Source of the DNA: Syntrophaceae bacterium
GTDB taxonomy: Bacteria > Desulfobacterota > BSN033 > UBA1163
Length of the DNA stretch: 45,950 bases
NCBI GenBank assembly: GCA_013388645.1
Contig: JACAEV010000029.1
Span: forward strand, 1-45,950
Reading direction: 5' to 3'
The notes below the pieces were generated by a model. That model was not told the DNA's origin and made no database searches. It was given only the letters and a program-made list of their open reading frames with translations. The translations under genes were made by a program, and so were the position numbers. Positions 4,172-35,310 of this stretch are shown here, piece after piece. Numbering within the stretch: the stretch's first letter is position 1; each line of letters opens with the position of its first letter.

Positions 4172-5464
4172 ATGGAGGGAATGGAATTGAAACAAAAAAC
4201 CATCGTCATGATATCCACCTTGGATACGAAGGGGTCCGAGGCGGGTTTTTTGAAAGATCTTATTCAAGAGAAGGGGTACCGAATTATCCTCATCGATACG
4301 AATACAGGCGGCCCCCCTTCCATCTCCCCTGACATTTCATCAGAAGAGATAGCAGAATCGGGAGGGGGAAATATTGAACAGATGAGAAGGATGAAGGATA
4401 CAGCTCAGGTCTCCTCCATTATGATTAAAGGGGCCATCAAAAAAGTGAAAAGCCTCTTGGAGAATGGAGAACTTGACGGAATGGTTTCGTTTGGAGGAGC
4501 CAGTAACACTGCTATCGCCACAACCGTTATGAAGTCCCTCCCTTTTGGCATTCCTAAGGTGATGTTATCCAGCACAGCCGCTATGCCCGCATACGCCGGA
4601 GAATATTTCGGAACCAAAGATATTGCCATCATCCATTCCGTGGTGGACATTGCAGGGTTAAATCCATTGGTTAAAGACGTTCTGAAGAGGACAGCCGGTG
4701 CAATCTGTGGCATGGTGGAGATGAAGGAGAGTCCTTACTCCCTGATCAAGTCGCCTCAAAAGAAAAACTTGATCGCTTTAACAGAGTTCAAGTTTTCAGA
4801 AGAATGTTGCGGCTATATTAGACAGCTCTTGGAGGAGAAAGGAGTTGAGGTCATTCCTTTCCATGCTCAGGGAACGGGGGATAGGGCCATGGAAGATTTA
4901 ATTGGCGAAGGACTCTTCCAAGGGGTAATGGACATGGTTCCTGCTGGAGTTGGAGAGGAACTTTTAGGAGGAAATCGAGCTGCAGGTCCAAACCGTCTTG
5001 AGACAGCCGGGAAAATGGGCATTCCCCAGGTCATCACCCCTTGTGGCTTCGATATGCTTAGTTGCGGTCCATTAGAGAGAGGGAATCGTGGAGATCCTTT
5101 GTGGGTTTCAAAGAATATAAAAGGGAGGAAACTTTTTGTTCCGGACGCCTTCCGGGTTCAGGCCCGAACGAATTCTCAAGAATTGAGAGAGATTGCAAGA
5201 GAAGTGGCAAAAAAGTTGAATCAATCAAAAGGGCCTGTGGCTGTGCTCATCCCTTTAAAGGGATGGTCCTCTCTCGACCAGGAAGGGATGCCTCTCTATG
5301 ATCCAGAAGCGGATCAGGCCTTCCTCGATGAATTGAAAATTCATCTGACACCCAAGATCTCCCTCATTGAGCTCGACCTCCACCTGAATACCCTTGCGTT
5401 CGCTGAGGAAGCAGTGAATCAATTTATGAAGCTCTACCCCGATAGAAAATCTTCTACTTTCTAA
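4172..5464 (+). CDS. Tm-1-like ATP-binding domain protein (UPF0261 family)
   Basis: TIVMISTLDTKGSEAGFLKDLI, VSFGGASNTAIATTVMKSLPFGIPKVMLSS and LIPLKGWSSLDQEGMPLYDPEADQAF are UPF0261-type motifs. Confidence 0.85.
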   Translation: MEGMELKQKTIVMISTLDTKGSEAGFLKDLIQEKGYRIILIDTNTGGPPSISPDISSEEIAESGGGNIEQMRRMKDTAQVSSIMIKGAIKKVKSLLENGELDGMVSFGGASNTAIATTVMKSLPFGIPKVMLSSTAAMPAYAGEYFGTKDIAIIHSVVDIAGLNPLVKDVLKRTAGAICGMVEMKESPYSLIKSPQKKNLIALTEFKFSEECCGYIRQLLEEKGVEVIPFHAQGTGDRAMEDLIGEGLFQGVMDMVPAGVGEELLGGNRAAGPNRLETAGKMGIPQVITPCGFDMLSCGPLERGNRGDPLWVSKNIKGRKLFVPDAFRVQARTNSQELREIAREVAKKLNQSKGPVAVLIPLKGWSSLDQEGMPLYDPEADQAFLDELKIHLTPKISLIELDLHLNTLAFAEEAVNQFMKLYPDRKSSTF

Positions 5465-5600: not shown

Positions 5601-6518
5601 TTATGAAGCAGCCGTGGCACGGGGGAGGGCCAATTCTCCTTTTAACTCATTCACCATCTTGAGGAAGGCTTGGCTGGGAGGAGAGAGAGGTTTTTCACCA
5701 TGATAAATGATGTCAGTAAAAAAAACAATGTTACCCTCTTCGATGGTAATGACTTTTAAGGTCCCCTTCTCCAATTCTTCCCGGATATCCGGTTCAAACA
5801 TGAAGGACACCCCTTTGTTCTGTTTCACATAGCCCACGATAAAATCCAAGCTGCTTGCCTCAATGATCACAGAGGGCCATATTCCATATTCCTGAAATTT
5901 CCTCAGGATGGCTGTTCTTGAACCTGATCCTTTCTCCCTTAAAATCACGGGCTCGCCATTGAGCTCTCTCAAGGAGATGCTTTTTCTCTGCGAGAACCTG
6001 TGTTCAGGTGAAACGACCAGCGCGAATTCAACCGTCGAGAAGAAAATCGATTTGATTTTTCGATCGAGGTTCAACTGTGAGATAAAGGCAAGTTCATTTT
6101 TCATATCCAGAACACTCTTTGCCATATCCTCCGAATTCCCTTCATCCAAAATCACTTTGATACGCGGGAACCTCTTTTGGAACTCGGAGAGTAAAGAAGG
6201 CATGATGTAGCGTGCATAATTTTTAGTCGTTCCAATCTGAAGCGTCCCTCTCATCAACCTCTTGAAGTCTCTCATCTTCTCATTGGCATCCGATACCAGA
6301 TCAAAAATTTTTTCAGCATATTGATACAGGAGTTCTCCCGCTTCGGTCAATTGCATTCTCTTTCGTACTTGTTGAATGAGTTTCAAATTTAATGATTTTT
6401 CTAAAGATTTGACCTGAATCGTCACAGCCGGTTGGGTCACATTTAATTCTTCCGCTGCCCGGGTATAATTCTTCCTCTTCGCAACCAAATAAAAGACTTC
6501 TAATTGTTTTAGATTCAA
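5601..6518 (-). CDS. LysR-family transcriptional regulator
   Basis: MNLKQLEVFYLVAKRKNYTRAAEELNVTQPAVTIQVKSLEKSL HTH, followed by a substrate-binding domain; divergent from the FAD oxidoreductase cluster. Confidence 0.92.
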   Translation of the reverse strand: MNLKQLEVFYLVAKRKNYTRAAEELNVTQPAVTIQVKSLEKSLNLKLIQQVRKRMQLTEAGELLYQYAEKIFDLVSDANEKMRDFKRLMRGTLQIGTTKNYARYIMPSLLSEFQKRFPRIKVILDEGNSEDMAKSVLDMKNELAFISQLNLDRKIKSIFFSTVEFALVVSPEHRFSQRKSISLRELNGEPVILREKGSGSRTAILRKFQEYGIWPSVIIEASSLDFIVGYVKQNKGVSFMFEPDIREELEKGTLKVITIEEGNIVFFTDIIYHGEKPLSPPSQAFLKMVNELKGELALPRATAAS

Positions 6519-6737: not shown

Positions 6738-8354
6738 ATGCCCCAATATGATGGTGTGATCATAGGTGGTGGACCAAATGGACTCACCTTAGCATGTTAC
6801 TTAGCTAAGGCGGGACTGAAAGTCATCATTTTAGAGAAGCGATATGAAATGGGAGGAGGCCTTTGCTCGGAGATGATCACTATTCCGGGCTTCATCCATA
6901 ACACTCATGCCATCTACCATCCCATGGTAGATTACGCTCCAGTCTTCCCTGATCTTGAATTGGATAAGACTTATGACCTCCAGTACATTCATCCTGACCT
7001 GGTCATGGCCATGCCCTTTCAAGATGGCCGAAGCCTCTGCATCTATTCGGATATAGAAAAAACGTGGGCTTCCTTTGCCCAATTCTCAAAAAAAGACGCA
7101 GATGCCTATCGAGACACTTATAAACGGTTCAAAGGATATGTGGACGCATTTCTTGGACCTGCGACGTACGATATGGCCAAACCAGCCATTGAACAAGTGA
7201 TTAAACTCCACTCCAAACCATTAGGTCAAGAGATCAGTGCACTTTCTGAAAAAAAACCCATCGATATCATCCATGGGATATTTGAAAACAACCAGGTTAG
7301 AACCCTGATGCTCTATGCGACCTGTATGTGGGGCTTGGACTATGACCTCGAAGGACTGGGTTACCTCGTACCCCTCATGGTCAATCGTGCTGCCAATTAT
7401 CGACTTTGTGTAGGCGGGTCCCACCACATGGCCAATTTGATGTCTAAATTCCTTTATCGACATGGAGGAATGATCTTGGGAAGTCAGATCATCAAAAGAA
7501 TCATTGTGGAAAACGGAACGGCAAAAGGTGTTGAATTAGACGACGGAACGATTTATCAAGCAACAAAATTTGTTGCCTCCAGCATCGATCCCTATCAAAC
7601 CTTCCTCAAATATATTGGTGAGAAAGACCTCCCAAAAGATCTGGTCACGCGTACAAAAGACTGGAAATGGGAAAAATGGTCACTCTTTGATCTCCACCTC
7701 GCGCTCTTTAACGCACCCCAGTTTATCGCTGCCTCTACAAATCCTGATCTGAATAAAGCCTTTATTTACGTTCTTGGATTTGAGACGGAAGAGAATCTGA
7801 TCGATCATTTTAAGGCCTTAAAAAATGGGGAACTGAAGCCATCCGGATTCAATTGTTGCTTTCCAACCCTTTTCGATCCCTCAGAAGCACCTCCGGGAAG
7901 ACATACCGGTTTAATATCCGAACATGCACCCTATCGTTTGAAGGAAGGGGGGCCTGAAAAGTGGTATAAGATCCGTCAAGAACACGCCAAAGAACTCATT
8001 GATAAACTTAAAAAATACGCACCCAACATGGGTGAGGAGAACATCCTCTGGACCTACATTGCCTCTCCTCTCGACATTGAAAACAAATTTGCAGATATGG
8101 TCGAAGGATCGATCAAACAGGGAGGATACTACCCTCTTCAAATGGGATACTTGAGGCCGAACGAACTCTGCTCCCAATATGCTACACCGATTAAAAACCT
8201 CTATGTTTGTGGAGCCTCCACCTTCCCCGGAGGATTGGTGACCTACGGTGCAGGTTATAATGCAGCCAACCGAATCGCCCAAGACCTTGGAATCAAAAAA
8301 TGGTGGAAAGAACCTGAAATCGTGACAAAAGCAAAGGCAGAAGGTTTGTTATAG
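6738..8354 (+). CDS. FAD/NAD(P)-dependent oxidoreductase, phytoene desaturase/carotenoid isomerase-like
   Basis: N-terminal [32 protein letters not shown] dinucleotide-binding motif; C-terminal [31 protein letters not shown]. Confidence 0.85.
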
Positions 8355-8616: not shown

Positions 8617-10284
8617 ATGCCGGATACAAGTTATGATGCCATTGTCATTGGCGGAGGCCATCACGGAACGATCATTGCCTGCTACTTGCAACATGCAGGT
8701 CTCAAGACATTGGTTTGTGAACGTCAACATGAATTAGGGGGAGGGGCTTGCGGTGAAGAGCTTCCTCTCCCTGGTTTTATCCAGAATACCTGTGCTCACT
8801 TCACTCGTGTCTGGACTCACCCTGTTTACACTGATTTCAATTTAAGAGAATACGGCCTTAAATATATCTTTCCAGATCAAAATGAAGGCATGGTCTATCC
8901 GGACGGAACCTGTTTTGTTGGCTATTCTGCCTGGAAGGTCATCGACCCTTTGACCGGAAAAGAGGAGCTCTCAAATGAAAATGTGAAAAAGACCTATAAT
9001 GAGATTGCCCGTTTTTCCAAAACGGATGCGGAGACCTATCTCGATATCCTGGGAAAATATCAACGAAAATGGAGGGCGGCCTTTCGGGAATATCGATATA
9101 GCCCTCCCACCCCTTGGGGAGTCAAAAATGCTTTGGAAAAGCTCTGCGATGATCCTGTGGATGGCATTGATCCTGTTTATCAATTCATGACAGGCTCTCA
9201 GATCGCCAAAGACCTTTTTGAAAGCCCTGAGCTTCAATGCCTCTTTATGAGGGCCATTGAAACTTCAACAGGCTGTTTCCCCGGCGATGTGATTGGTCTC
9301 TACGTCTTTGTTCATGTCATCGCCCTCACCCTTTCTTTTGAATCCGTCTCCATCGTCATTGGAGGAACACACACCATTACCCATGCGCTCCAGAGAGCCT
9401 TTAGTGCTATGGGAGGGGAGTTTTGTGTGGAGACAGAGGTCGATAAAGTTCTGGTCGAAAACGGAAAGGCCAGGGGGGTCAGGCTTTCTAATGGAATCGA
9501 GATTGAAGCGAAACAACTGGTCGTCAGCGATTTGGGAGTTCCCCAGACCATCTTCAGATTGTTGGGAGAGAATTTTGTGACGCCAAAAGTAGCCAGACGC
9601 ATTCGAAATATTCGTTACGACCGCTCTCAGATTTACTGGGGCAATATGGCCATGCATGAACTCCCGAAATATAAAGCGGTCTCCTTCAATCCGGATATCG
9701 GTAGCCAACCTCGACTCTATATGGGGGATAAAGACCCCGAATATATTTCCTGGAAATATCAAGCGGACATTTTTACCAAAGGGTTTCCTGAAAAATGGTA
9801 CATGCTGGCTGCGCCAGATTCCATTTGGGATAAGACCCGGGCACCTGATGGGAAACATACCATTTTAGTTGAAGAATTCGCTCCCCCCCTCCATCTCTTT
9901 TCCGAGAGACAATGGCTTAAAATGAAGAAAGAAGTGGAGGATTTGATGCTGAAGCAATGGCAGATCTATGCCCCCAACATGACCCGTGAAAATGTCATTG
10001 AAGCTTTCATCACCACCCCCTACGATACGGTCATGCGAAACATCGACATGTTGGAAGGGGGATGGGCAGAGGGAGCGATGTTTGCTTCCCAGGCCGACCG
10101 ATTCAGACCCATTCCCGACCTCTCCAATTACCGCATTCCCTTTCTGAAGAACATGTATATTTGTTCTTCCAATATGCATTCAGGAGGCGGTATTGCTCGA
10201 GGCTCGAGTTATAACTGTTTCAAGGTCATTGCCGAAGATTTCAAGTTGGAGAAAATCTGGGAGAAAAAAGGAAGAGCCTGGTAA
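8617..10284 (+). CDS. FAD-dependent oxidoreductase, phytoene desaturase-like, paralogue of 6738-8354
   Basis: YDAIVIGGGHHGTIIACYLQHAGLKTLVCERQHELGGGACGEE; divergent C-terminal motif MYICSSNMHSGGGIARGSSYNCFKVIAEDF. Confidence 0.85.
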   Translation: MPDTSYDAIVIGGGHHGTIIACYLQHAGLKTLVCERQHELGGGACGEELPLPGFIQNTCAHFTRVWTHPVYTDFNLREYGLKYIFPDQNEGMVYPDGTCFVGYSAWKVIDPLTGKEELSNENVKKTYNEIARFSKTDAETYLDILGKYQRKWRAAFREYRYSPPTPWGVKNALEKLCDDPVDGIDPVYQFMTGSQIAKDLFESPELQCLFMRAIETSTGCFPGDVIGLYVFVHVIALTLSFESVSIVIGGTHTITHALQRAFSAMGGEFCVETEVDKVLVENGKARGVRLSNGIEIEAKQLVVSDLGVPQTIFRLLGENFVTPKVARRIRNIRYDRSQIYWGNMAMHELPKYKAVSFNPDIGSQPRLYMGDKDPEYISWKYQADIFTKGFPEKWYMLAAPDSIWDKTRAPDGKHTILVEEFAPPLHLFSERQWLKMKKEVEDLMLKQWQIYAPNMTRENVIEAFITTPYDTVMRNIDMLEGGWAEGAMFASQADRFRPIPDLSNYRIPFLKNMYICSSNMHSGGGIARGSSYNCFKVIAEDFKLEKIWEKKGRAW

Positions 10285-10494: not shown

Positions 10495-11247
10495 ATGAGA
10501 CTCAAAGATAAAGTGGCAATTGTAACGGGAGCGGCCAAAGGCTTGGGAAGGGAATTCGCAATCGGAATGGCAAAAGAGGGAGCCAAGATCATGGCCGTGA
10601 CTCGGAAGGACCTTGTCAATCTCGAAAAAACCGTCAAGGAGATTGAAACTTTGGGCGGGGTGGCAAAAGCTTTTCAGGCTGATGTCGCAATCGAAAAGGA
10701 TGCGATCAAGATCGCCGAGGAAACCGTTAAGGCCTTTGGTAAGATTGATATCTTAGTCAACTGTGCAGCCATCTACGATGGGTTGGTTCGAAAATCCTTC
10801 ACAGAGATAGACCCCAACGAATGGGATCAGGTGATGGCGGTGAACGTCAAAGGCCCCTGGCTATGCACGAGAGCTGTATTCCCTTATATGAAACAACAAG
10901 GAAAAGGAAAGGTTATCAATCTCTCTTCCGAAGTATTCTTCACAGGGTCCCATGGTTTTATCCACTATGTCTCCTCCAAGGGAGGGGTGATTGGTTTAAC
11001 CCGAGCCCTTGCCATTGAATTGGGTCCATATAACATTAACATTAATGCAGTGGCACCAGGATTTACAGATACAGAAGCGAGCCGCCATCTGGCTGATGTG
11101 ACGAAATATGATGTGAGTAAAACTCCTTTAAGACGATTAGAGCAACCGAACGATCTTCTGGGAGCGGTCATTTTCCTTGCATCCGATGAAAGCAATTTTA
11201 TCACCGGGCAGACCCTATTGGTGGATGGCGGAAGGGCCATGCATTAA
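10495..11247 (+). CDS. SDR family oxidoreductase
   Basis: TGAAKGLGREFA, NCAAIYDG, YVSSKGGVIGLTRALA, PGFTDT, FITGQTLLVDGG. Confidence 0.92.
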   Translation: MRLKDKVAIVTGAAKGLGREFAIGMAKEGAKIMAVTRKDLVNLEKTVKEIETLGGVAKAFQADVAIEKDAIKIAEETVKAFGKIDILVNCAAIYDGLVRKSFTEIDPNEWDQVMAVNVKGPWLCTRAVFPYMKQQGKGKVINLSSEVFFTGSHGFIHYVSSKGGVIGLTRALAIELGPYNININAVAPGFTDTEASRHLADVTKYDVSKTPLRRLEQPNDLLGAVIFLASDESNFITGQTLLVDGGRAMH

Positions 11248-11267: not shown

Positions 11268-13907
11268 ATGCACGAGATCAATTTCATCTTAAACGGAGCT
11301 CCTCGAAGAGTCATCGTGGATCCCCAAAAAAGTTTATTGAAAGTCATTCGGGAGGACTTAAAGCTCACCGGGACCAAAGAGGGCTGCTCCGCAGGCCACT
11401 GCGGATCCTGTGCTGTCCTGGTTGGGAGTGAGGTGGTTCTTTCCTGCAGGGTTCCCGTAGTTAAAGCCCAGGGCAAAGAGATCACGACCATCGAAGGGAT
11501 TGGAACCCTTAAAAATCCTCACCCTCTTCAATTAGCCTTTGCCAAAGCAGGAGCTATTCAGTGCGGTTTTTGCACACCGGGGATGATCATTCGTGCAAAA
11601 TCCATTCTGGACAAAAATCTTGATCCTTCAAGAGACGAAATAAAGAAGGCCCTTCAACCCCACATCTGCCGTTGCACGGGTTATCAAAAGATCTTCGAGG
11701 CGATTGAACTGGCAGCCTCTTATCTGAGGGGAAAAACAAAATCCATTGAATTGAAATTGACCGGGAGAGGGACAATTGGCCAGCCTGTGACCCGATCCGA
11801 TGCGCTTGAAAAAGCAACAGGAACAACCCTTTATGCCGCTGACCTCCCAGTAGACGGATGTGCTTACATCAAGGTTCTAAGGAGTCCCCATCACCATGCT
11901 AAAATCATCCAAATTGAGAAGGCGGAAGCGGAAGCAATTCCTGGCGTCCTAACTGTGCTCACGGCGGAGGATGTGAAAGGAACCAATATATTAAAGATGG
12001 CTGGTGATGATCAACCCATCCTTTGCGGAAATAAAGTGCGTTTTATCGGAGACCCCGTAGCCGCTGTCGTAGCCACCTCTGAAGAAATCGCCTCGTATGC
12101 CATTGAAAAGATCGAGGTCACTTATGAACCTCTGGAGCCTGTTCTTACTCCAGAAGAGGCATTGAAGGAAGGAGCCATAAAGGTCCATGATGATCGGTCG
12201 AACCTCTTTTTCGAACAGCCCATTATCCATGGCGATGTGAAGAAAGGTTTCTCAGAGGCAGATGTTGTAGTTGAAAAAACCTACCGGACGCAAACCGTTG
12301 AACATGGATATCTCGAAAACGACGCCGGAGTGGCTTATATCCATGAAAACGGGCAATTGATCATTATGTCCGCAAGCCAGAACATCCATGCCCATCGTAA
12401 AACCATTTCAGAGGCATTAGGTCTCAGTTTGGACAAGGTACGGGTGATTCAAACCCCTACCGGAGGAGCTTTTGGAGGAAAATTAGATATCTCCGTGGGC
12501 GGAATTCTGGGCGTGGCAGCCTTAAAGCTGAAAAGACCGGTCAAATTCGTCTATACAAGGAGTGAAACCTTTGCCGCAACGCCAAAACGTCATCCTTTTT
12601 TGATGAAAGTAAAAGTGGGGGCTAAAAAAGACGGGACTTTGATGGCATTGGATTTTGACCTCACAGCAGATGGAGGAGCCTATAAATCATTCAGCAATAG
12701 CGTGACGCAACGAGGCTTGATCCATTCCCAGGGACCTTATCGCTTTCCACACGCCAAGGTATATGGAAAAGCTGTTTATACCAATACCGCCTTCAAAGGA
12801 GCCATGAGGGGTTTTGGCGTTCCACAGGTCGCTTTTGCAATTGAATCGATCCTTGATGAGCTGGCCCTGGAATTAAAAATGAATCCCTTAGCCCTGAGGA
12901 TAAAAAACGGCTTTGTGAAGGGAGATACGACCATCTGTGGCCAAGTACTTGATCACGCCATCGGATTCCAAGAATGTATGGAGACGCTAAAACCTCTTTA
13001 CGAAAAAGCGCTTAGAGAAGCAAAAGCAAATACCACCCAAGAAATCAAACGAGGCGTTGGTTTAGGAGGGGTTTGGTTTGGCCCGGGACGGAGTGCTCCA
13101 GATCAGTCCGAGGCATGGGCGGAACTACTGCCTGACGATACGTTACAGGTTTGGATCGGAGCTGCAGACATGGGTCAAGGTGCAGAAACGACGTTTTGGC
13201 AGATCGCCTCAGAAACGATGGGATTCCCTTTGGAAAAGGTAAAAGTCTTTACCACCGATACCGAGATCACACCGGATGGAAACTTCTCCGCTGGAAGCCG
13301 TCAGACTTATGTCTCGGGAAGAGCTGTACAGATGGCAGTGGAAGAGTTGAAAAAGGCCATGGATGAAAACGGAGTAAAAACATATAACGAGATGAAGGCA
13401 AAGGGCTTACCCACTCTTTACAAAGTGGTCAACAAGCCCGTGACTTCAAGACCTGATCCCAAGACCGGTCAAGGAGTCCCTTGGGAAACTTATTCCTTTG
13501 GAATCCAGATGGCAGAAGTGGCCGTCGAGATAAAAACCGGCAAAGTCGATGTCCTCAAAATCACCTCTGTCCATGACTTGGGGACAGTGATCAATATCCA
13601 AAATATGGAGGGCCAACTTCACGGGGGTATTTACATGGGGCTCGGGTATGCCCTCATGGAGGAATTCATATATACAAAGACCGATAGTTTTGCTAAGTTC
13701 AGGGTTCCAAGAGCCAAAGACATGCCTGATATGGAAGTCATTACTCTGAATATTCCGAGACAGAAGGGACCTTTTGGCGCCTCAGGTATGGCGGAGTATG
13801 CGGATGTACCCACTGCACCCGCCATTGCAAACGCCATCTTTCATGCCTGCGGTGCGCGGATACGAGATTTACCCATTACCCCTGACAAGGTGAAAAAATT
13901 TCTTTAG
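11268..13907 (+). CDS. Molybdopterin aldehyde oxidoreductase, fused [2Fe-2S] + Mo-binding domains, no FAD domain
   Basis: N-terminal EGCSAGHCGSCAVLV and QCGFCTPGM...HICRCTGYQKI [2Fe-2S] motifs, followed by an XDH-type a/b hammerhead and Mo domain ending GASGMAEYADVPTAPAIANAI. Confidence 0.9.
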   Translation: MHEINFILNGAPRRVIVDPQKSLLKVIREDLKLTGTKEGCSAGHCGSCAVLVGSEVVLSCRVPVVKAQGKEITTIEGIGTLKNPHPLQLAFAKAGAIQCGFCTPGMIIRAKSILDKNLDPSRDEIKKALQPHICRCTGYQKIFEAIELAASYLRGKTKSIELKLTGRGTIGQPVTRSDALEKATGTTLYAADLPVDGCAYIKVLRSPHHHAKIIQIEKAEAEAIPGVLTVLTAEDVKGTNILKMAGDDQPILCGNKVRFIGDPVAAVVATSEEIASYAIEKIEVTYEPLEPVLTPEEALKEGAIKVHDDRSNLFFEQPIIHGDVKKGFSEADVVVEKTYRTQTVEHGYLENDAGVAYIHENGQLIIMSASQNIHAHRKTISEALGLSLDKVRVIQTPTGGAFGGKLDISVGGILGVAALKLKRPVKFVYTRSETFAATPKRHPFLMKVKVGAKKDGTLMALDFDLTADGGAYKSFSNSVTQRGLIHSQGPYRFPHAKVYGKAVYTNTAFKGAMRGFGVPQVAFAIESILDELALELKMNPLALRIKNGFVKGDTTICGQVLDHAIGFQECMETLKPLYEKALREAKANTTQEIKRGVGLGGVWFGPGRSAPDQSEAWAELLPDDTLQVWIGAADMGQGAETTFWQIASETMGFPLEKVKVFTTDTEITPDGNFSAGSRQTYVSGRAVQMAVEELKKAMDENGVKTYNEMKAKGLPTLYKVVNKPVTSRPDPKTGQGVPWETYSFGIQMAEVAVEIKTGKVDVLKITSVHDLGTVINIQNMEGQLHGGIYMGLGYALMEEFIYTKTDSFAKFRVPRAKDMPDMEVITLNIPRQKGPFGASGMAEYADVPTAPAIANAIFHACGARIRDLPITPDKVKKFL

Positions 13908-13944: not shown

Positions 13945-14811
13945 TTGAAACCAAAATCAGAATGCGCCTCTTGTCTTTTGAGTTGGGTGTGTGAGAGATC
14001 GGGAGTTCTCTCCAAGGAAGAGGAACGCTTACCATTAACAAAAACCCTTCTGGAAATTCTTTCAAGAGAATTTCATTCAGAAATCAACGTGGGTTCATTA
14101 AGCAATAAGCTCACCAATGCCATCCCTCAATTTATCTCTCAATCCTCTGAGTTTTATCAACCGCTTAAGCGTAAAAACAATCAACTCGCCAAGAACCTGC
14201 TGGGAGCAGCAGAAAATTATATTAAAAAGGGGAGAACCGCCCAGCAAAAATTTGAGAGGGCATGCCATCTTGCCTCAACAAGCAATGTGGCTCCCATGAA
14301 CATCCCGTCTGATGCCTTTGCCTTTCAAGAGGTGAAAAGGCTTTTAAGAGGAAGAACGTTCTTCCCCGCCATGATCGGCCCTCTCTTCCAGGAGGCACGG
14401 AAGGCTTCTAAGGTTCTGTATATCACAGACAATGCTGGCGAGATCGGTTTTGACTCTCTCTTGATGGCTCACTTGAAAGAGATGGGTTTAAAGATCAACC
14501 TCATTGTCAAAGAAGGCCCTTTTTTTGAGGATGCGACCATGGAAGACGCTCTTTTCTTCCATGCCGATCAGTGGGTCGACGAGATCTTCACCCTGAATGG
14601 ATTCTTTGTGCCGAAAGAAATACCTCCTGCCATCAGAGACCTCTTTAACAAAAGCAATCTTATCATCTCGAAAGGAACCGGGAATTACGAAGCCTTGAAG
14701 GGGGAGGTGGAGGGGAAGGCGACCATCTATATGCTAAAAATAAAATGCAAACCGATCGCGGCAGAGATCGGAGCCAAAATCGGAAGTTTTGTCGTAAAGC
14801 TCGAAAAATGA
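13945..14811 (+). CDS. DUF89/ARMT1-like (damage-control phosphatase family) protein
   Basis: TTG start with aaggagg RBS; N-terminal CASCLLSWVCE; VLYITDNAGEIGFDSLLMAHL; ISKGTGNYEAL. Confidence 0.75.
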   Translation: MKPKSECASCLLSWVCERSGVLSKEEERLPLTKTLLEILSREFHSEINVGSLSNKLTNAIPQFISQSSEFYQPLKRKNNQLAKNLLGAAENYIKKGRTAQQKFERACHLASTSNVAPMNIPSDAFAFQEVKRLLRGRTFFPAMIGPLFQEARKASKVLYITDNAGEIGFDSLLMAHLKEMGLKINLIVKEGPFFEDATMEDALFFHADQWVDEIFTLNGFFVPKEIPPAIRDLFNKSNLIISKGTGNYEALKGEVEGKATIYMLKIKCKPIAAEIGAKIGSFVVKLEK

Positions 14812-15020: not shown

Positions 15021-16706
15021 ATGAAATTTTATGACGTCGTACCCGGACTTGATTTTATGGAAGAATATGATTTAGAGCAGTCACCAGCGTGGTTTCTTGA
15101 TGCCACGCACTCCGTTCCCCCTTGGACACCTATGTTCGGGTGGTTTTGGATCAATTTCTGTCGACATGGAATGCAGTATGGCGCTGAAACCCTCTCCCTT
15201 CCCACAGTGAAAGGATGGGATTGGCGTTTTAAAGATGGAGGGGGGTATCTCACCCTTCTGATGGTCGATTCCGATAAAGAGAAGGCGGAAAGGGAGAAGA
15301 AGTTCAGAGAAGCCATTCGGCCCTTTGTGGAGAATTATGAGGGCCTTTGGGGAGGTTACGTTAAGGAGATTTTAAAAAGATATGAAAATCTGAAAACTCT
15401 TGACGTCAGTACTGCTTCGAACATCAAGCTTCTCGAAAATTTCGAGGAGACGATTGATACCTGCCGAAGGATGTGGGAAATCCATATGCATATGATGTAT
15501 GGGACTTATACCCCTTATGTCCTCTTTGAGCAACTCTGCACCCAATTGCTCCATATCGACGATACCCATCCCACTTTCCATAAGTTAGTGGCCGGCTTTG
15601 ATAACGAAAGTTTTCGGGTGGACCGCAGACTCTGGGAGTTCTCTAAGAAAGCAAAAGAGATGGGGCTCGATGGTCTCTTCATGCAGACACCTTCGAAGCA
15701 GATGAAGGCTAAATTGGGGGAAAGCGATAAAGGGAAGACTTTTTTGAAAGAGTTTGACGAATTCCTTGAAAAAGAAGCAGGCTGGCGGATGGAACGAATG
15801 GCTGAGATTAATGTTCCCACCTGGCAAGAGGACCCAACACCCGGCTTCGAAACGGTAAAAATGTATCTAAAAAAAGGCGGAGAATTCGACTTAGACCAAG
15901 ACCGTAAAAAGATCGAAAAGGAAAGGAAAGATGCGGAAAAAGAGGTTTTGGGAAAGATCGCCCCTGAGCAGAAGAGTTGGTTTTCCATGCTCATGAAAGT
16001 GGCTCAGAATTGTAGTCGTTTCAGTGAGGAACACAACCATTATCTCGATCTCTACACCCATGCCTTGATGAGACGGTCCTGCATGGCACTGGGAAATCGA
16101 TTTGCTAAATCCGGTTCGATTAATCAACCAGAAGATATCTTCTTCCTCATGCCCGATGAGGTAAGAAAAGCTGGAATTAACCCTGATAAACTCAATCTTA
16201 AACCTATCGTCCAACGCCGACGGAAAGAATGGGAGGAATGGAATCAGAATGGAAATCCCCCTGCCATCTTTAAAGAGGGATTTACTTTGGAGCAGGCGAT
16301 CGGAGGATTAGTCCAATCCCTGGATCCCATCGCCCTCAAAGTCGTGGTAGGAAGCATGCCCGTGCCGAAGCCTGAACTCAAGGCTGACCTCATGGGGACG
16401 TGCGGTTCTTCAGGGGTGGCAGAAGGGATTGCTCGAGTAGTCCTCAGGGATGAAGACTTACCGACCATCCAGAAAGGAGATATCCTCGTTGCGATGAGCA
16501 CCTCTCCAGCCTGGACGCCTGTCTTTAGTATGATTAATGGAGTCGTAGTCGATCGAGGGGCGAGTTTATCACACGCCGCCATTGTTGGAAGGGAGTATGG
16601 TATCCCTGTGGTGATGAATGTTTTCACCGGCACCCAGGTGATTAAGTCCGGTCAGAGAATCCGGGTTGACGGAAACTTGGGAGCCGTTTTCATCCTGGAC
16701 AAATGA
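15021..16706 (+). CDS. PEP-utilizing-enzyme phosphohistidine (swivel) domain protein with N-terminal helical domain; split dikinase subunit
   Basis: C-terminus GDILVAMSTSPAWTPVFSMINGVVVDRGASLSHAAIVGREYGIPVVMNVFTGTQVIKSGQRIRVDG, with conserved His at codon 518 (nt 16572-16574). Confidence 0.85.
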   Translation: MKFYDVVPGLDFMEEYDLEQSPAWFLDATHSVPPWTPMFGWFWINFCRHGMQYGAETLSLPTVKGWDWRFKDGGGYLTLLMVDSDKEKAEREKKFREAIRPFVENYEGLWGGYVKEILKRYENLKTLDVSTASNIKLLENFEETIDTCRRMWEIHMHMMYGTYTPYVLFEQLCTQLLHIDDTHPTFHKLVAGFDNESFRVDRRLWEFSKKAKEMGLDGLFMQTPSKQMKAKLGESDKGKTFLKEFDEFLEKEAGWRMERMAEINVPTWQEDPTPGFETVKMYLKKGGEFDLDQDRKKIEKERKDAEKEVLGKIAPEQKSWFSMLMKVAQNCSRFSEEHNHYLDLYTHALMRRSCMALGNRFAKSGSINQPEDIFFLMPDEVRKAGINPDKLNLKPIVQRRRKEWEEWNQNGNPPAIFKEGFTLEQAIGGLVQSLDPIALKVVVGSMPVPKPELKADLMGTCGSSGVAEGIARVVLRDEDLPTIQKGDILVAMSTSPAWTPVFSMINGVVVDRGASLSHAAIVGREYGIPVVMNVFTGTQVIKSGQRIRVDGNLGAVFILDK

Positions 16707-16707
16707 T

Positions 16708-17763
16708 ATGCCTTCAAAAAAAGGAACGAAGAATGTCATCTGGTTCAAAAACTGTTCAACCAAAGACTTTTCTCAGGTGGGGGGTAAAAATGCCAATCTC
16801 GGGGAGATGCTTCGACTCGGACTTCGAGTTCCTCCGGGGTTTGCGGTCACCACGAAAGCCTTTAACACGTTTATTGATCGGGGGAGGGTTCGAAACGAAA
16901 TCGTGAGAACCCTCTCGCAAATCCCGCCAGAGAATATCCATGCCCTTGAGGAAGCGGGACGTCAGATTCGAGAACGAATTGAATCTACTCCAATTCCTAA
17001 AAACATTGTAAAAGAGATCAAAGAAGCTTATCAAAAATTAGGTGATCTCTGCGGCAACCCAGACATCCCTGTGGCTGTCCGATCCAGTGCAACCTCTGAA
17101 GATACAAAGATGGCAAGCTTCGCCGGCTTGCATGATTCTTATCTCTGGGTCAGAGGAGAAGGGGAAGTGGTCCAGTATGTATTGAAATGCTGGGCAAGCC
17201 TTTTTACCGATCGTGTCATCGCTTACCGAAACCAGATTGGGTGGCCTCACGACAAAGTAACCATCAGCGTTGGAGTGCAGAAGATGGTCAATGCGAAATG
17301 CGCTGGGGTGATGTTTACGATTGATCCGATCATGGGAGATGCGAATAAGATTGTCGTGGAAGGCAATTGGGGATTAGGGGAAAGTGTTGTGAAAGGGGAG
17401 GTTTCCCCAGATCACTTCCTGGTGGATAAACAAACGTCCGAGATTTTGGAGAAGAATTGTGCTCAGAAACTGGTCTGTTATCAATTGGAGGGGAATAAGG
17501 TGGTTTGCAGGCCACCCTCCCCTGAAAAACAGAATCAGCTTTGCCTAAAGGACGAAGAGCTGGTTGAAATCGTCCGTTTGGGAAAAATTTCAGAAACCCA
17601 CTATCAATCGGCCCAGGATCTGGAGTGGGCCATCGATGTTGACCTCCCCTTCCCTGAGAATGTTTTTCTTGTCCAGACCCGGCCTGTGACGAGTGCGGGG
17701 AAACCAAAACAGAGCAATACAGATATCATTATCGATATGATGTCCTCCCTTTTCAGAAGATAA
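16708..17763 (+). CDS. PEP/pyruvate-binding (ATP-grasp) domain protein; split dikinase subunit
   Basis: VGGKNANLGEMLRLGLRVPPGFAVTT, VAVRSSATSEDTKMASFAGLHDSYLWV, VEGNWGLGESVVKGEVSPD, DLEWAID..FLVQTRPVT. The ATG at 16708 is preferred over 16666 because it is 1 nt after the upstream stop. Confidence 0.88.
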   Translation: MPSKKGTKNVIWFKNCSTKDFSQVGGKNANLGEMLRLGLRVPPGFAVTTKAFNTFIDRGRVRNEIVRTLSQIPPENIHALEEAGRQIRERIESTPIPKNIVKEIKEAYQKLGDLCGNPDIPVAVRSSATSEDTKMASFAGLHDSYLWVRGEGEVVQYVLKCWASLFTDRVIAYRNQIGWPHDKVTISVGVQKMVNAKCAGVMFTIDPIMGDANKIVVEGNWGLGESVVKGEVSPDHFLVDKQTSEILEKNCAQKLVCYQLEGNKVVCRPPSPEKQNQLCLKDEELVEIVRLGKISETHYQSAQDLEWAIDVDLPFPENVFLVQTRPVTSAGKPKQSNTDIIIDMMSSLFRR

Positions 17764-17920: not shown

Positions 17921-18241
17921 ATGTATGTCCGAATGACCTTTTTTAAATTGAAAGAAGGAAAAATGCAAGAACTACGAGAGCTTTACAATAAGGAGGTCGT
18001 CTCAGCTCACAAAGGCCATAAGGGAATTCGTTTTGTTCATCTCCTTGAGTCTTTAGATAAGAAAGATGAAGGAATCTCGATCACCGCCTGGGATACCAAA
18101 GCGGATGTCGAAGCCTATGAGAAGAGCGGAGACTATGAAAAACTGGTTGCCAAATTCAAGCATATGTATACTGAGGAACCCTTGCTTAAATCCTATGAGG
18201 TAACTGCCAGTTCCGAACCGATACTCCTTCGCATTTTTTAA
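17921..18241 (+). CDS. ABM-like dimeric alpha/beta-barrel protein
   Basis: MYVRMTFFKLKEGKMQELRELY...GHKGIRFVHLLESLDKKDEGISITAWDTKADVEAYEKS resembles antibiotic-biosynthesis-monooxygenase folds. Confidence 0.65.
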   Translation: MYVRMTFFKLKEGKMQELRELYNKEVVSAHKGHKGIRFVHLLESLDKKDEGISITAWDTKADVEAYEKSGDYEKLVAKFKHMYTEEPLLKSYEVTASSEPILLRIF

Positions 18242-18258: not shown

Positions 18259-18918
18259 ATGATTTTCTTATTTAATCAACACTGGGACATAATTCCTGAA
18301 AAAGAAGAGGAATACACAAAATTTGCCATCAATCATTACATTCCTACCATGAAAAAGATCGGTATCACTCCGGTTGGAGGTTTTTACGTGGTGGTGGGAG
18401 AAGGTCCCAGGGTGATCTCGGTGGGAACAGTGGACTCGCTACAAAAACTTCAAAAGGCGATGGAAACAGAGGAATATGAGGAGGTCACAGCTCAGGTCCA
18501 AGGTTATGTCACCAACTATTGCAGTAGAATTCTTAAACCCACCGGCAGAGTAAAAATGGATCAGTATACGATTCAATTAAGGGTATGGAAATTTAACCAA
18601 TACTTTAATATCATTCCTGGAAAAGAAAAGGAATACTCAGATTTTGTTAAAGAGGATCATCTCCCAACGATGGAAAAATTAGGCATAAAGATGACAGGAG
18701 GATGGCATGTAGTGGTTGGACCCAGTCCCTATATCGTTGCGGAAGGAACTGCGACAAGTATTGTCGCTATTGCCAAAGCCCTTGAGAGCGATGAATACAA
18801 GCGAATTACAAAGATATTAACATCGAAATATGTGACGGATTATAGCAGTCGTATCCTCGCTCCAACTGGTCGCATTGAGCTACCTTATCTGTTGGGAAAA
18901 ATGATGAAGGGGTTTTAA
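18259..18918 (+). CDS. Hypothetical protein with internal tandem duplication (dimeric alpha/beta-barrel-like)
   Basis: FNQHWDIIPEKEEEYTKFAINHYIPTMKKIGI...YCSRILKPTGRV repeats as FNQYFNIIPGKEKEYSDFVKEDHLPTMEKLGI...YSSRILAPTGRI. Confidence 0.75.
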   Translation: MIFLFNQHWDIIPEKEEEYTKFAINHYIPTMKKIGITPVGGFYVVVGEGPRVISVGTVDSLQKLQKAMETEEYEEVTAQVQGYVTNYCSRILKPTGRVKMDQYTIQLRVWKFNQYFNIIPGKEKEYSDFVKEDHLPTMEKLGIKMTGGWHVVVGPSPYIVAEGTATSIVAIAKALESDEYKRITKILTSKYVTDYSSRILAPTGRIELPYLLGKMMKGF

Positions 18919-19080: not shown

Positions 19081-19710
19081 GTGAATATAAAACCGACCTA
19101 TAAAAAAATTTACGAACTTGCAAAACCTTTTCTGCGAACCAGAAAGAATCTCATTCACACACGGATTGCCCTCCGATATGCCTTAAAACTTTTAAAATCT
19201 GAAAAGGGGGAGGAAGACGTGGTCATCCCTGCCATTATTCTTCATGATGTAGGCTGGAAAGCCATCCCCAAGCATCTTCACCTCACTGCATTTGGACCCA
19301 ACCCATCTAATCCTAAGTTGGCAAGGGTACATGAACGGGAGGGAGCCAAAATGGCCCGAATCCTCCTCAACGACCTGCATTACCTTCCTATCAAAATAAA
19401 TGAGATCTCCCACATCATTGGAGGCCATGATTCGAGAAAGCGAGCCATCTCGCTAAGTGACCGAATTGTTAAGGATGCGGATAAACTTTGGCGATATTCC
19501 CGAACAGGTGTAAAAGTGGAGACAGAGCGATTTAATGTGCCACGGTCAATTTATCTTAACTTCTTAGAAAAGATAATAAAAGAATGGTTTCTGACTAAGA
19601 CGGGAAGAGAGATTGCCAAAAGTGAGATGGCATCGAGAAGAAAGGAAAAAGAATCGGGTAAGCTGGGGGCGAAGAAAAAACGCCACCTCAAAATTCATCG
19701 CATCGTATAA
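19081..19710 (+). CDS. HD domain-containing protein
   Basis: GTG start; HTRIALRYALKLL, PAIILHDVGW, HEREGAKMA, IIGGHDSR, KDADKLWR match the HD signature. Confidence 0.8.
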   Translation: MNIKPTYKKIYELAKPFLRTRKNLIHTRIALRYALKLLKSEKGEEDVVIPAIILHDVGWKAIPKHLHLTAFGPNPSNPKLARVHEREGAKMARILLNDLHYLPIKINEISHIIGGHDSRKRAISLSDRIVKDADKLWRYSRTGVKVETERFNVPRSIYLNFLEKIIKEWFLTKTGREIAKSEMASRRKEKESGKLGAKKKRHLKIHRIV

Positions 19711-19750: not shown

Positions 19751-20875
19751 TTACGCCTTCAGCAAATTTTCTAAATATTTGCAAGCCGACAGCCCAAATT
19801 TGGAATCATTGATGGACAGGTCAACACTCATCACGAATTCTTCGTTGATGAACTTCTCGATCCCTTTCTTGAACGTTTGGATGAGTTCCGGGTCATAGAA
19901 TTCCCTCCCCGGTTCTCCAGGATAAGACCAACCTCGAAGAGGGATTAAAAAAATTGATTTTTGAGGATGTGTCTCTTTTAGAATATTTCCAATCCACTTT
20001 ACAGCCTTGATGATTTCCTCTTTGCTCGCTTTAATCCCCCATCTGAAATCGTGGTGATATCTTTTCCTTTTCCTAAAGAGAGGAAGGGAGGGATGATCGT
20101 TAGGAAACGCAATGGTATCCAACCCTCCAGGGGAAATGACGGCTGGTAGATCCTTTGAAAGATAAGCATAAAGCCTATTTTTGTTGATCTTCCCATATGC
20201 CCCTCCAACAATATGATCCATCACGTCATGGAGAGTGAGATCCAAGATCCCCTTAAAAAAACCCATCTGGATCAGTTCTGCCATGGCCATCGTATTTTCT
20301 CCAATGGAATGGAAGGGGATAAGGTAAAAACCTTTTTTGTCCCAGAAATTTTTTACCGTTTTGAAGCATCCGTCCGTGATCCCAAAGCCAGTGATGGCAA
20401 TAGCGGGTTTGTCAAGTCGGGGTTGACCTCCAAGAAAAGAGGTTAACATCCTGACAGCATTTGTGAGAATGGATTTTGTGATGGGGTTCAACATCCCAAA
20501 GTCGCAGGGAGACTGGATATAAAGGATATCCTGATAAGGCTTAAATTGTTGGATACTATTGACAATCATTGTTGAGATGATGACCTTTGGAACAAATAAC
20601 GGAATACCTTCCATCAATTTAGTCGCCATGAAAAGATTGGTCCCCCCACCTACTGAAATGACCCCTGAGATAGGCTTCTTTTTTTCTAATTCTCTCAACC
20701 TCGCCTTCGCCTTCAAAATGGATTGATTGACTGCAATCTCTCTGCTGTCCATCTTTTTTTTTGTGGATAAGTCTATTGGAATAGGTTGATGGGATTGCCT
20801 CTTTATTTCTTGACAGATGAAATCGAGCTCTTCATGCTTTGTATCCCAGGTCCCAAGGACAATATAGTTGGCCAT
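19751..20875 (-). CDS. Tm-1-like ATP-binding domain protein (UPF0261 family), second copy
   Basis: YIVLGTWDTKHEELDFICQEI, ISVGGGTNLFMATKLMEGIPLFVPKVIIST, LIPLRGWSYPGEPGREFYDPE; paralogous to 4172-5464. Confidence 0.82.
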   Translation of the reverse strand: MANYIVLGTWDTKHEELDFICQEIKRQSHQPIPIDLSTKKKMDSREIAVNQSILKAKARLRELEKKKPISGVISVGGGTNLFMATKLMEGIPLFVPKVIISTMIVNSIQQFKPYQDILYIQSPCDFGMLNPITKSILTNAVRMLTSFLGGQPRLDKPAIAITGFGITDGCFKTVKNFWDKKGFYLIPFHSIGENTMAMAELIQMGFFKGILDLTLHDVMDHIVGGAYGKINKNRLYAYLSKDLPAVISPGGLDTIAFPNDHPSLPLFRKRKRYHHDFRWGIKASKEEIIKAVKWIGNILKETHPQKSIFLIPLRGWSYPGEPGREFYDPELIQTFKKGIEKFINEEFVMSVDLSINDSKFGLSACKYLENLLKA

Positions 20876-22332: not shown

Positions 22333-23682
22333 ATGAAGACATACTCAAATCAGAAAGATCTATATTGGAATCCAGCGATCGAAACGCTTCCATTGGAAAA
22401 ACTGAGATCCCTTCAACTCAGAAAATTTAAGAGGATTTTAGAATGGGCCTATGAGAGATCGAAGTTTCACCGAAAACTTTATCAGGAGGCTGGTCTTGAA
22501 CCGGGTGATATCAAATCTTATGAGGATGTGGTCAAAGTCCCAAAGGTGGAAAAGGCCATGATGAGAGATATCCAGAGAAAGGATCCTTTTCCTTACGGAG
22601 ACGCTCTGTGTGTTCCTCTGGAGGAGGTCACCGAATTCCGGCAGACTAGCGGAACCACTGGAACACCTGTTTATCAGCCGGATACTTGGCAGGACTGGGA
22701 GTGGTGGTCAGAAGCCTGGGCTTACCTCCTCTATGCCCAAGGTTACCGAAAAATGGATAGGGTATTTCTTCCCTTTGGATACAATATCTTTGTGGCCTTC
22801 TGGGCAGGTCATTATGCAGCCGAAAAGATTGGCTGCGAAGTCATTCCGGGCGGTGTCCTCGATACAGAAGCTCGGATTCTTAAGATTCAAGAACTCAAAG
22901 CGAATGCCATGATGGCGACTCCCACTTATGTCTTGGGAATGGCGGACACCGCCAAGAAAAAACTTGGAATCGATCCAGCACGCGATCTGACCATACGAAA
23001 AATCACTTGTGCCGGCGAACCAGGCGCCAGCATTCCCTCTACCAAACAGAGAATGGAAGAGGTCTGGGGAGCAAAGGTTTATGACCATGTAGGCGCAACA
23101 GAGATTGGAGCTTGGGGCTTCGAATGCACCGCGCAACCCGGTGGTCTCCATATCAATGAAGCTCTCTTTCTTGTCCAGTTAGAGGACATCGAAACAGGAG
23201 AAATCATCGAAGAGCCAGGGCGAAAAGGGAAGATTGTCATCACGGCGCTTGATCGAATTGCCCAACCCTGTATCCGATTCGATTCGAAGGATGTGGCGGA
23301 ATGGGCGAAGGACCCCTGCCCTTGTGGAAGAACATTCCGCCTTATCAAAGGAGGGGTGGTTGGAAGGGCAGATGATATTACGAAGATCAAAGGGGTGCTC
23401 ATTGCTCCCTCTGCGATTGAAGAAGTGGTCCGCTCGATCAAGGGGTTGAGTAACGAATATGAAGTCATCGTGACGAAGAAAGGAGATCTGGACCAGATCA
23501 CCCTCAAGATCGAAATTTTACCTGAAGAAGAGAAAAATCAGGAGGTAATCCTTACCCAATTGAAGGACCAATTACGATTGAAAACGAATCTCGGTTACAA
23601 CATCGAAGTTCATCCTTATAATTCTTTGCCTCGTTATGAGGTGAAGGCGAAACGATTCAAAGATTTGAGGAAACACGACTGA
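22333..23682 (+). CDS. PaaK-like phenylacetate--CoA ligase family protein
   Basis: YWNPAIETLPLEKLRSLQLRKFKRILEWAYERSKFHRKLY, RQTSGTTGTPVYQPDT, GEPGASIPSTKQRMEEVWGAKVYDHVGATEIGAWGFEC. Confidence 0.9.
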   Translation: MKTYSNQKDLYWNPAIETLPLEKLRSLQLRKFKRILEWAYERSKFHRKLYQEAGLEPGDIKSYEDVVKVPKVEKAMMRDIQRKDPFPYGDALCVPLEEVTEFRQTSGTTGTPVYQPDTWQDWEWWSEAWAYLLYAQGYRKMDRVFLPFGYNIFVAFWAGHYAAEKIGCEVIPGGVLDTEARILKIQELKANAMMATPTYVLGMADTAKKKLGIDPARDLTIRKITCAGEPGASIPSTKQRMEEVWGAKVYDHVGATEIGAWGFECTAQPGGLHINEALFLVQLEDIETGEIIEEPGRKGKIVITALDRIAQPCIRFDSKDVAEWAKDPCPCGRTFRLIKGGVVGRADDITKIKGVLIAPSAIEEVVRSIKGLSNEYEVIVTKKGDLDQITLKIEILPEEEKNQEVILTQLKDQLRLKTNLGYNIEVHPYNSLPRYEVKAKRFKDLRKHD

Positions 23683-31985: not shown

Positions 31986-32243
31986 TTACCCTCCTGATAA
32001 TACAATGAGTGTTACTTCGACCTTGTCTCCTTCTTTTAATACTGTGTCAATTCCATGGGAAGTATCTTCCTGTTCAACTCCATTTAGGTAAACTTTAAAC
32101 TCACCATGGATTCGATTACTTACTGGGTTGATTATCGAAAATTCTGTTCTGTTTGATAACTCTAACAATATCTTTCTCAATGTGGGATTTTCTATTTCAA
32201 GTTCTGGCTGGCCAAAAAAATTGGTCTTTACTTTCACTACCAT
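31986..32243 (-). CDS. MoaD/ThiS-family ubiquitin-like sulfur carrier
   Basis: 85 aa ending in ...DKVEVTLIVLSGG (C-terminal GG); VYLNG and LKEGDKVEV motifs. Confidence 0.8.
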   Translation of the reverse strand: MVVKVKTNFFGQPELEIENPTLRKILLELSNRTEFSIINPVSNRIHGEFKVYLNGVEQEDTSHGIDTVLKEGDKVEVTLIVLSGG

Positions 32244-32261: not shown

Positions 32262-32438
32262 TCATTTTCTGCAAATCGGACAATCGCTGTCTTTATTCAA
32301 ATAGGACAATAGAAATTCTCCTATTTTGCCATCGAACAGCAACAGCTTTCCAACTAAAGGGGTGCCAATTTCTGCCAATAATTTGATAGCCTCCATACCC
32401 AATACCGTTTGGTCGAGTTTTATAAAACCGATTACTTC
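32262..32438 (-). pseudogene. C-terminal fragment of a ThiF/MoeB/HesA-family adenylyltransferase
   Basis: The minus-strand frame reads EVIGFIKLDQTVLGMEAIKLLAEIGTPLVGKLLLFDGKIGEFLLSYLNKDSDCPICRK*, matching the family tail (EAIKLL..G.PL.GKLLL.D......CP.C). Too short for the 60-aa ORF track. Confidence 0.7.
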
Positions 32439-34798: not shown

Positions 34799-35283
34799 TT
34801 TGCCACCTCCTTTTTCTGTGCGACAGCTTTAATCGCTTCAATATATTGTGTGTATCCCGTGCACCGGCACAGGTTTCCTTCCATATCCCTTCGAATCTCC
34901 TCCTCATTAGGATGGGGATTCTCATCGAGCATGGCCTTAGAAGACATGAGTTTTCCTGGTGTGCAAAACCCACACTGGAAGGCGTGGTAATCCAGAAAGG
35001 CCTGCTGAAGAGGGTGCAATTTCCCATCTCTGGAAGCTAATCCCTCAACTGTCATCACCTCTCTCCCATTGACCTGTAGGGCCAACACAGAACAGGCCTT
35101 GACAGCCATTTTATCGACGATCACTGTACAGGCCCCGCATGAATTATCCATGCACGCCTGCTTTGCACCCGTGAGACCCAAGTCATTCCTTAAAAATTGT
35201 AATAAGGTGGTCTTAGGCTTGATCAACAATTCGTAAGGTCTCCCATTGACGTTTACCTTTAATATTTTTTTTGCAATATCCAT
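34795..35283 (-). CDS. (2Fe-2S)-binding subunit, CoxS-like
   Basis: QACMDNSCGACTVIVDKMAVKAC and QCGFCTPGKLMSSKAML...NLCRCTGYTQYIEAI; 4-nt overlap with the Mo-subunit gene. Confidence 0.93.
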   Translation of the reverse strand: MDIAKKILKVNVNGRPYELLIKPKTTLLQFLRNDLGLTGAKQACMDNSCGACTVIVDKMAVKACSVLALQVNGREVMTVEGLASRDGKLHPLQQAFLDYHAFQCGFCTPGKLMSSKAMLDENPHPNEEEIRRDMEGNLCRCTGYTQYIEAIKAVAQKKEVAK

Positions 35284-35310
35284 AATGGATGTTCCCTCCT
35301 TCGATAAAAA

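Follow-up and report, generated by a model that had tools for sequence, protein, structure and literature searches.

The present analysis concerns a stretch of 45,950 nucleotides from a Syntrophaceae bacterium (contig JACAEV010000029.1, hereafter the window) and, within it, two adjacent genes at positions 15021-17763, here called A and B, whose products, judging from their domains and from a structural model, very probably form a two-component dikinase that uses ATP to phosphorylate a small molecule. We suggest, with a rough probability of 0.55, that this kinase phosphorylates the hydroxyl group of an alkylphenol-type compound within an oxygen-independent oxidation pathway that resembles the one encoded by the cre (4-cresol) operon and that feeds into benzoyl-coenzyme A (benzoyl-CoA) degradation. 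The initial annotation of this DNA had proposed that the pathway could be new. This holds for the clade of A and for the conserved gene cluster, which is undescribed as a pathway context, but not for the split phosphotransferase, which is of an already known kind, nor for the neighbourhood, which points to a recognisable relative of cre; the relationship with cre and the putative oxygen-independent hydroxylation module were missed in that annotation.

The open reading frame of A encodes 561 amino acids from an ATG start and ends at 16706, whereas that of B starts with an ATG at 16708 (with an in-frame TTG at 16666), encodes 351 amino acids and ends at 17763, leaving a gap of 1 nucleotide. Pfam recognized a single domain in each protein, i.e., PF00391 (the mobile, histidine-bearing domain) at residues 483-554 of A (E 8e-22) and PF01326 (PPDK_N) in B (E 2.6e-106), and did not find the phosphoenolpyruvate (PEP)-binding barrel PF02896 in either of them. 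The histidine of the swivel domain, His518, lies within SLSHAAIVGRE and was invariant in an alignment of 14 orthologs and then in one of 38; two residues before it A has, in the alignment, Leu516, at the position where PEP synthases have a regulatory threonine (PMC12167813). The AlphaFold model of A (predicted local distance difference test, pLDDT, 83; predicted template-modelling score, pTM, 0.80) shows long helices over most of residues 85-410 and matches rifampin phosphotransferase (RPH, 5fbu) over its whole length (template-modelling score, TM, 0.71; 572 alignment columns; 18% identity). Its superposition on structures of pyruvate phosphate dikinase (PPDK) is good over about 120-130 columns, that is, over the swivel domain alone, and the only match among known structures for the first 450 residues is RPH. 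As for B, the stretches GGK, VRSSATSEDT, and VQTRPVT align with PpsB, with the I subunit of the cre operon, and with the PEP synthase of the same genome; the protein is 38% identical to that I subunit, and its ATP-grasp domain is closest in sequence to those of PEP synthases. The initial reading of the pair, i.e., two frames 1 nucleotide apart, the first with a helical region and a His518 swivel domain, the second with an ATP-grasp domain, and no PEP TIM barrel, is thus borne out in each of these features.

As published (PMC12167813), PpsAB, CreHI, and HpeHI are two-component dikinases with the same split, and A and B share with them the structural features of this kind: two adjacent genes, a swivel histidine, no barrel, and an RPH-like acceptor domain. 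This agrees with the class, a small-molecule phosphotransferase, to which the pair had first been assigned. Like PpsAB of Thauera and Azoarcus, the pair consists of an ATP-grasp subunit and a His-swivel subunit without a PEP barrel, whereas A shares no more than about 27% identity with PpsA and falls in another clade, and neither a CBS subunit nor PpcABD is located nearby in the window. The likeness to HpeHI, the hydroxyphenylethanone kinase of Rhodococcus GD02 (PMC12167813), extends to the split, the swivel histidine, the RPH-like acceptor domain and the absence of the regulatory threonine; the biotin carboxylase and NagD-type phosphatase used by the Hpe system (PMC12167813) are instead not seen in the window cluster. 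Moreover, the phylogenies of HpeH and HpeI are congruent (PMC12167813), unlike the present pair, in which divergence is much faster in B than in A. Across L042 and other orthologous loci, conservation is far lower for B than for A (44% versus 84% identity in one example), and B may be exchanged or fast-evolving.

On the basis of its sequence, A represents a separate deep clade, outside the PpsA/CreH/HpeH subfamily proper. It is also about 27% identical to the H subunit of the cre operon (CreH), and against the NCBIfam model NF006153, whose curated cut-off is 578 bits, it scores 242 bits, versus 809 for PpsA of Azoarcus and 747 for the H subunit. In a tree of 56 proteins, which did not include HpeH and in which some other paralogs were long-branched and unsure in their placement, PpsA and CreH formed one clade (100/100) and the clade of A lay outside it. 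In loci L065, L067, L069, and L064 a clade sister to A (37-48% identity) was observed, and in some genomes its clusters also hold F1/F2/SDR or AOR/DUF89 genes (see below), which suggests several substrate variants of one type of pathway.

A scan of named genomes returned 63 loci, 54-96% identical to the window copy in the best segment; since full-length copies within this range occur in dozens of named metagenome-assembled genomes (MAGs), the conservation of A and B is far beyond chance. The carriers are mostly Desulfobacterota, and some bins bear the label Chloroflexi, Actinomycetota, Bacillota, or Proteobacteria. Of 395 sampled genomes of the phylum, 24, spread over ten families, possess close orthologs (at least 64% identity, E below 1e-250). 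The genes that recur around A and B encode CrtI/CrtO-type flavoproteins, a short-chain dehydrogenase/reductase (SDR), HD-domain, DUF89, NIPSNAP and ABM proteins, and a LysR-type regulator. In the window the cluster and its surroundings are arranged as follows:

4172-5464, + strand: UPF0261/Tm-1-like protein, a frequent companion (PF06792 and PF23189)
5601-6518, - strand: LysR-type regulator, divergent
6738-8354, + strand: F1, CrtI/COG1233-type flavoprotein, CtmAB-like (CrtO/crtI family matches; covalent-flavin motif GFIHNTHA, His57)
8617-10284, + strand: F2, second CrtI/COG1233-type flavoprotein (Cys59 replaces the motif histidine)
10495-11247, + strand: SDR alcohol dehydrogenase, CreG-like (46% identical to the cre-operon SDR)
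11268-13907, + strand: MOP-type molybdenum/2Fe-2S aldehyde oxidoreductase (best PDB match, D. gigas aldehyde oxidoreductase 1sij)
13945-14811, + strand: DUF89/ARMT1-like metal-dependent phosphatase (PF01937, E 5.5e-39)
15021-16706, + strand: subunit A, acceptor-binding region and C-terminal phosphohistidine swivel domain, with a putative HpeH/CreH/PpsA-like role
16708-17763, + strand: subunit B, ATP-grasp (PPDK_N), with a putative HpeI/CreI/PpsB-like role
17921-18241, + strand: ABM-family small protein, accessory (PF03992)
18259-18918, + strand: NIPSNAP/EthD-like double-domain protein, accessory (PF07978)
19081-19710, + strand: HD-domain protein, candidate CreD-like phosphohydrolase (PF01966; motif alignment)
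22333-23682, + strand: PaaK-type CoA ligase, a possible exit to the CoA thioester (TIGR02155 family match)

Counted over 64 loci, relatives of the DUF89 protein are present in 14, of the ABM protein in 13, of the NIPSNAP protein in 32, of the LysR-type regulator in 27, of the Tm-1-like protein in 18, and of the PaaK-type ligase in 9. Two exchanges of modules are informative. The first concerns the gene for the aldehyde enzyme, which belongs to one of three unrelated types: a tungsten aldehyde oxidoreductase (AOR; best PDB match 1aor), a MOP-type molybdenum enzyme, or an NAD-dependent aldehyde dehydrogenase (ALDH). Exactly one type is found in 46 loci, the window having the MOP type (584 bits against 1sij, 346 against xanthine dehydrogenase, XDH), and of the two loci flagged with two enzymes one owes this to a fragment of 57 bits and the other to a weak match (32%) on the opposite strand. 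The types replace each other in place: clusters L087 and L088 end with the HD gene followed by AOR, and the otherwise matching cluster L082 with the HD gene followed by XDH. Locus L080 has an AOR gene and no MOP type in its cluster, and its A shares 84% identity with that of the window. This one-per-locus swapping of unrelated enzymes makes it very likely that the oxidation of an aldehyde to an acid is part of the pathway.

A second exchange concerns the flavoproteins. Elsewhere, the F1/F2 pair is replaced by one flavoprotein together with the electron-transfer flavoprotein EtfAB and an HdrD-like protein. In the 36 loci of 12 kb or more, F1 is present in 21 and Etf in 14, and the two are never found together (0/36; Fisher 4e-9, uncorrected), whereas F2 co-occurs with F1 and, in other loci, with EtfAB; given that F2 is kept with either, it is probably the catalytic flavoprotein, with F1 or ETF/HdrD as its partner. 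The pair recalls CtmAB, the limonene dehydrogenase of Castellaniella defragrans, which consists of two COG1233 flavoproteins with 27% mutual identity and converts an allylic methyl group into an alcohol with water, after which alcohol and aldehyde dehydrogenases act (PMC4109377; PMC11061730). F1 and F2, both of the COG1233 family and of about 550 residues as in CtmAB, are 28% identical, and genes for alcohol and aldehyde oxidation accompany them; the model of F2 (pLDDT 87) has the gamma-carotenoid desaturase 4rep as its best match (TM 0.72). The covalent-FMN motif published for CtmAB and delta-24 sterol desaturase, G-F-L/R-X-N/S-T/L-H-A (PMC11061730), is represented in F1 as GF[LI]HNTHA in 15 of 24 copies, several others retaining HA. 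The differences are that nearly all F2 copies have cysteine at the flavin-histidine position and that F1 and F2, unlike CtmAB, are associated with a dikinase and phosphatases.

The other companions point to the cre operon. On the Rhodococcus plasmids NZ_CP021355 and NZ_CP129900, cre-type operons have the order P450, I, H, SDR, ferredoxin, reductase, HD, ALDH, collinear with creJIHGFEDC of Corynebacterium glutamicum, where creG is annotated as 4-hydroxybenzyl alcohol dehydrogenase, creD as phosphohydrolase, and creC as benzylaldehyde dehydrogenase (PMC7764795). In a scan of 72,556 plasmid records, relatives of the window HD protein occurred in just 2, and all 3 matching genes lie inside cre operons; for the SDR, which matched at least 5,000 records, ranks 1 and 3 are cre operons. 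In both settings the dikinase adjoins an SDR (46% identity), an HD protein (31%; in type III loci as much as 40%), and an aldehyde-oxidizing enzyme, and the ALDH of the loci with the third type of aldehyde enzyme is 35-40% identical to the operon ALDH. There are also differences: the P450, ferredoxin, and ferredoxin reductase of the cre operon (CreJEF) had no match in the 64 loci, where flavoproteins with or without ETF/HdrD are found instead; aldehyde oxidation usually falls to a tungsten or molybdenum enzyme; DUF89, NIPSNAP, and ABM genes are added; and A lies outside the H clade. Overall, we lean towards regarding the cluster as an oxygen-independent relative of the cre pathway. A link with aromatic compounds is also indicated by the benzoyl-CoA pathway marker BamA (profile TIGR03200), which the source genome (3.95 Mb, 95% complete) possesses and which is present in 19 of the 24 carriers versus 82 of the 371 other genomes (Fisher 2e-8, uncorrected).

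From this context we infer the class of the acceptor, the order of the steps, and the role of each flavoprotein as follows. B would bind ATP and its beta-phosphoryl group would pass to His518 of A, whose swivel domain would hand the phosphate to the hydroxyl group of an organic acceptor held in the helical domain. The acceptor would be of the alkylphenol type (methylphenol or similar) rather than plain phenol; the odds for an alkylphenol are about even, and confidence in any named substrate is low. F1 and F2 (elsewhere F2 together with EtfAB and a quinone reductase of the HdrD type) would use water to oxidize or hydroxylate the side chain, the SDR would form the aldehyde, and the MOP-type, tungsten, or NAD-dependent enzyme the acid; the HD protein, the DUF89 protein, or both might then take off the phosphate, and CoA ligation would lead to benzoyl-CoA degradation. 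Tentatively, and at somewhat less than even odds, one might see here a widespread anaerobic pathway that is as yet undescribed: a new dikinase clade would first phosphorylate a phenolic compound, a CtmAB-type flavoprotein pair (or F2 together with ETF and HdrD) would use water to hydroxylate the alkyl side chain, and the phosphate would come off once the acid has been formed. Such an oxygen-free route for cresols or alkylphenols, with phosphate as a protecting group, would differ from both p-cresol methylhydroxylase (PCMH) and fumarate addition.

Several points weigh against the alkylphenol pathway proposed here. The low identity of A to PpsA and CreH (about 27%) and its position outside the clade that they form leave room for a non-phenolic acceptor. 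A phosphate in the para position would hinder a PCMH-like hydroxylation via a quinone methide, so that the action of the flavoproteins on an aryl phosphate is putative, and they may use another mechanism, act at another position, or precede phosphorylation. The likeness of F1 and F2 to CtmAB was assessed by the published motif and by family, and the equation of CreD with the HD protein follows from gene order. HD and DUF89 genes are each limited to part of the loci, and the aldehyde enzyme is absent from the available stretch in 16 loci, 9 of which are at least 12 kb long. Five of the 24 carriers, some of them incomplete MAGs, have no BamA match, neither Fisher test was corrected for shared ancestry, and every carrier, like the whole set of 63 loci, is a MAG.

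The first of these points leads to the idea that the acceptor hydroxyl is not aromatic at all, as in an isoprenoid, terpenoid, or sterol alcohol, and that the cluster encodes an anaerobic terpene-type pathway with CtmAB-like hydroxylation of an allylic methyl group. The deep divergence of the acceptor domain from the phenol kinases fits this idea, as does the resemblance of F1 and F2 to CtmAB and delta-24 sterol desaturase in family and, mainly for F1, in flavin motif, and anaerobic sterol degradation employs an ATP-dependent steroid kinase (PMC8449060). That kinase, however, acts through a ternary complex and, according to its description, does not resemble known phosphotransferases (PMC8449060), and the 25-hydroxysteroid kinase was accordingly rejected as a relative; the cre-specific SDR and HD companions and the enrichment of BamA point, moreover, to aromatic compounds, and we consider a non-aromatic acceptor unlikely.

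Less probable still is an ordinary phenylphosphate synthase, in which A and B would phosphorylate phenol and a UbiD-type carboxylase encoded elsewhere would complete the pathway. The two-subunit split is the same and B is 47% identical to the ppsB product of Azoarcus. In five loci (L082, L087, L088, L125, and L139) a CBS-domain protein 36-38% identical to that of the Azoarcus phenylphosphate locus is encoded directly upstream of the system, in a stretch that also carries AMP-ligase and Tm-1 genes and, in L087 and L088, a ppcB-like fragment. Against this, contig C224 of the same genome (locus L076, 1-19900) carries its own phenylphosphate synthase/carboxylase-type locus, separate from A/B, with ppsA (41%), ppsB, ppcA (62%), ppcB (61%), two ppcD-like genes, and a UbiD-like gene, and for this reason A/B is probably not the phenol kinase, as had been surmised when the substrate was said perhaps not to be phenol. 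In keeping with the initial observation, no UbiD/Ppc or CBS relative was matched among the open reading frames of the window; over the 64 loci, UbiD is found near 2 and CBS near 5. The position of A outside the PpsA and CreH clade and below the NF006153 cut-off speaks against this alternative too, and phenol would need no aldehyde oxidoreductase, SDR, or flavoproteins.

A non-catabolic dikinase modifying or inactivating an antibiotic or another natural product, as RPH or PigC do, is very improbable: the fold of A is closest to RPH over its whole length, and the PigC and RedH family models also match weakly, but RPH is a single chain with an antibiotic substrate and no catabolic cluster, whereas here the genes are split as in the aromatic kinases, carriers are enriched in the benzoyl-CoA pathway, and the conserved neighbourhood (alcohol and aldehyde oxidation, ETF/HdrD, LysR, CoA ligases) is catabolic. 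A single-chain dikinase-like frame (ATP-grasp and swivel domain without a PEP barrel, RPH/PigC-like) was also observed in the same genome on contig C67 (locus L003, 1498-3327), where it ends, incomplete, at the locus edge. Lastly, a variant of PEP synthase or PPDK with its PEP-binding subunit encoded elsewhere, which the likeness of B to PEP synthases might suggest and which had been named at the start as what would overturn the proposal, is refuted on domain grounds, as the first 450 residues of A match RPH alone and the four PEP barrels of the genome each lie in their own long frame of 594-950 amino acids (one complete PEP synthase, with its three domains checked, one 950-residue frame of PPDK length, and two PtsI-like frames).

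If the alkylphenol pathway is real, it offers a testable route by which anaerobes open alkylphenols or similar compounds, and one in which phosphate is used independently of the P450 that accompanies it in the cre operon. Few systems of phosphorylation-first aromatic catabolism have been characterized (PpsAB, CreHI, HpeHI), and why phosphorylation is used as the opening move is unclear according to the authors of the HpeHI study (PMC12167813); the cluster also offers a new kinase scaffold and a flavoprotein partner for phenolic chemistry. Literature searches found no work linking phytoene dehydrogenase, AOR, and PEP-utilizing enzymes to anaerobic degradation, and nothing relevant on such a system with NIPSNAP in Desulfobacterota; two papers on benzene activation that name ppsA and flavoproteins (PMC13101534, PMC13416013) deal with other, glycolate-oxidase-like proteins, and no link was found.

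A few minor observations concern the surroundings of A and B. The window encodes a second UPF0261/Tm-1-like protein (19751-20875), and proteins of this type adjoin both the system described here and PpsA/PpcB-type loci (L142, L143, L148, L151, and L159), often with an AMP-ligase; they are possibly general partners of aryl-phosphate metabolism. Further downstream lies a second, three-subunit molybdenum hydroxylase (32432-36644); nearby are a CoxG-like gene and a small gene that may be MoaD-like (31986-32243, without a Pfam match). For the segment 32432-36183, 4-hydroxybenzoyl-CoA reductase was the best family match and was rejected (617 bits versus a cut-off of 994); since this enzyme falls below the family cut-off and is not conserved with A/B, it was left out of the system. 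Finally, a plasmid of the cultured thermophile Thermomicrobium roseum (L163) carries an A-like protein (29% identical) and a B-like protein, together with an ABM protein and split xanthine-dehydrogenase-type genes, and represents a possible testable relative.

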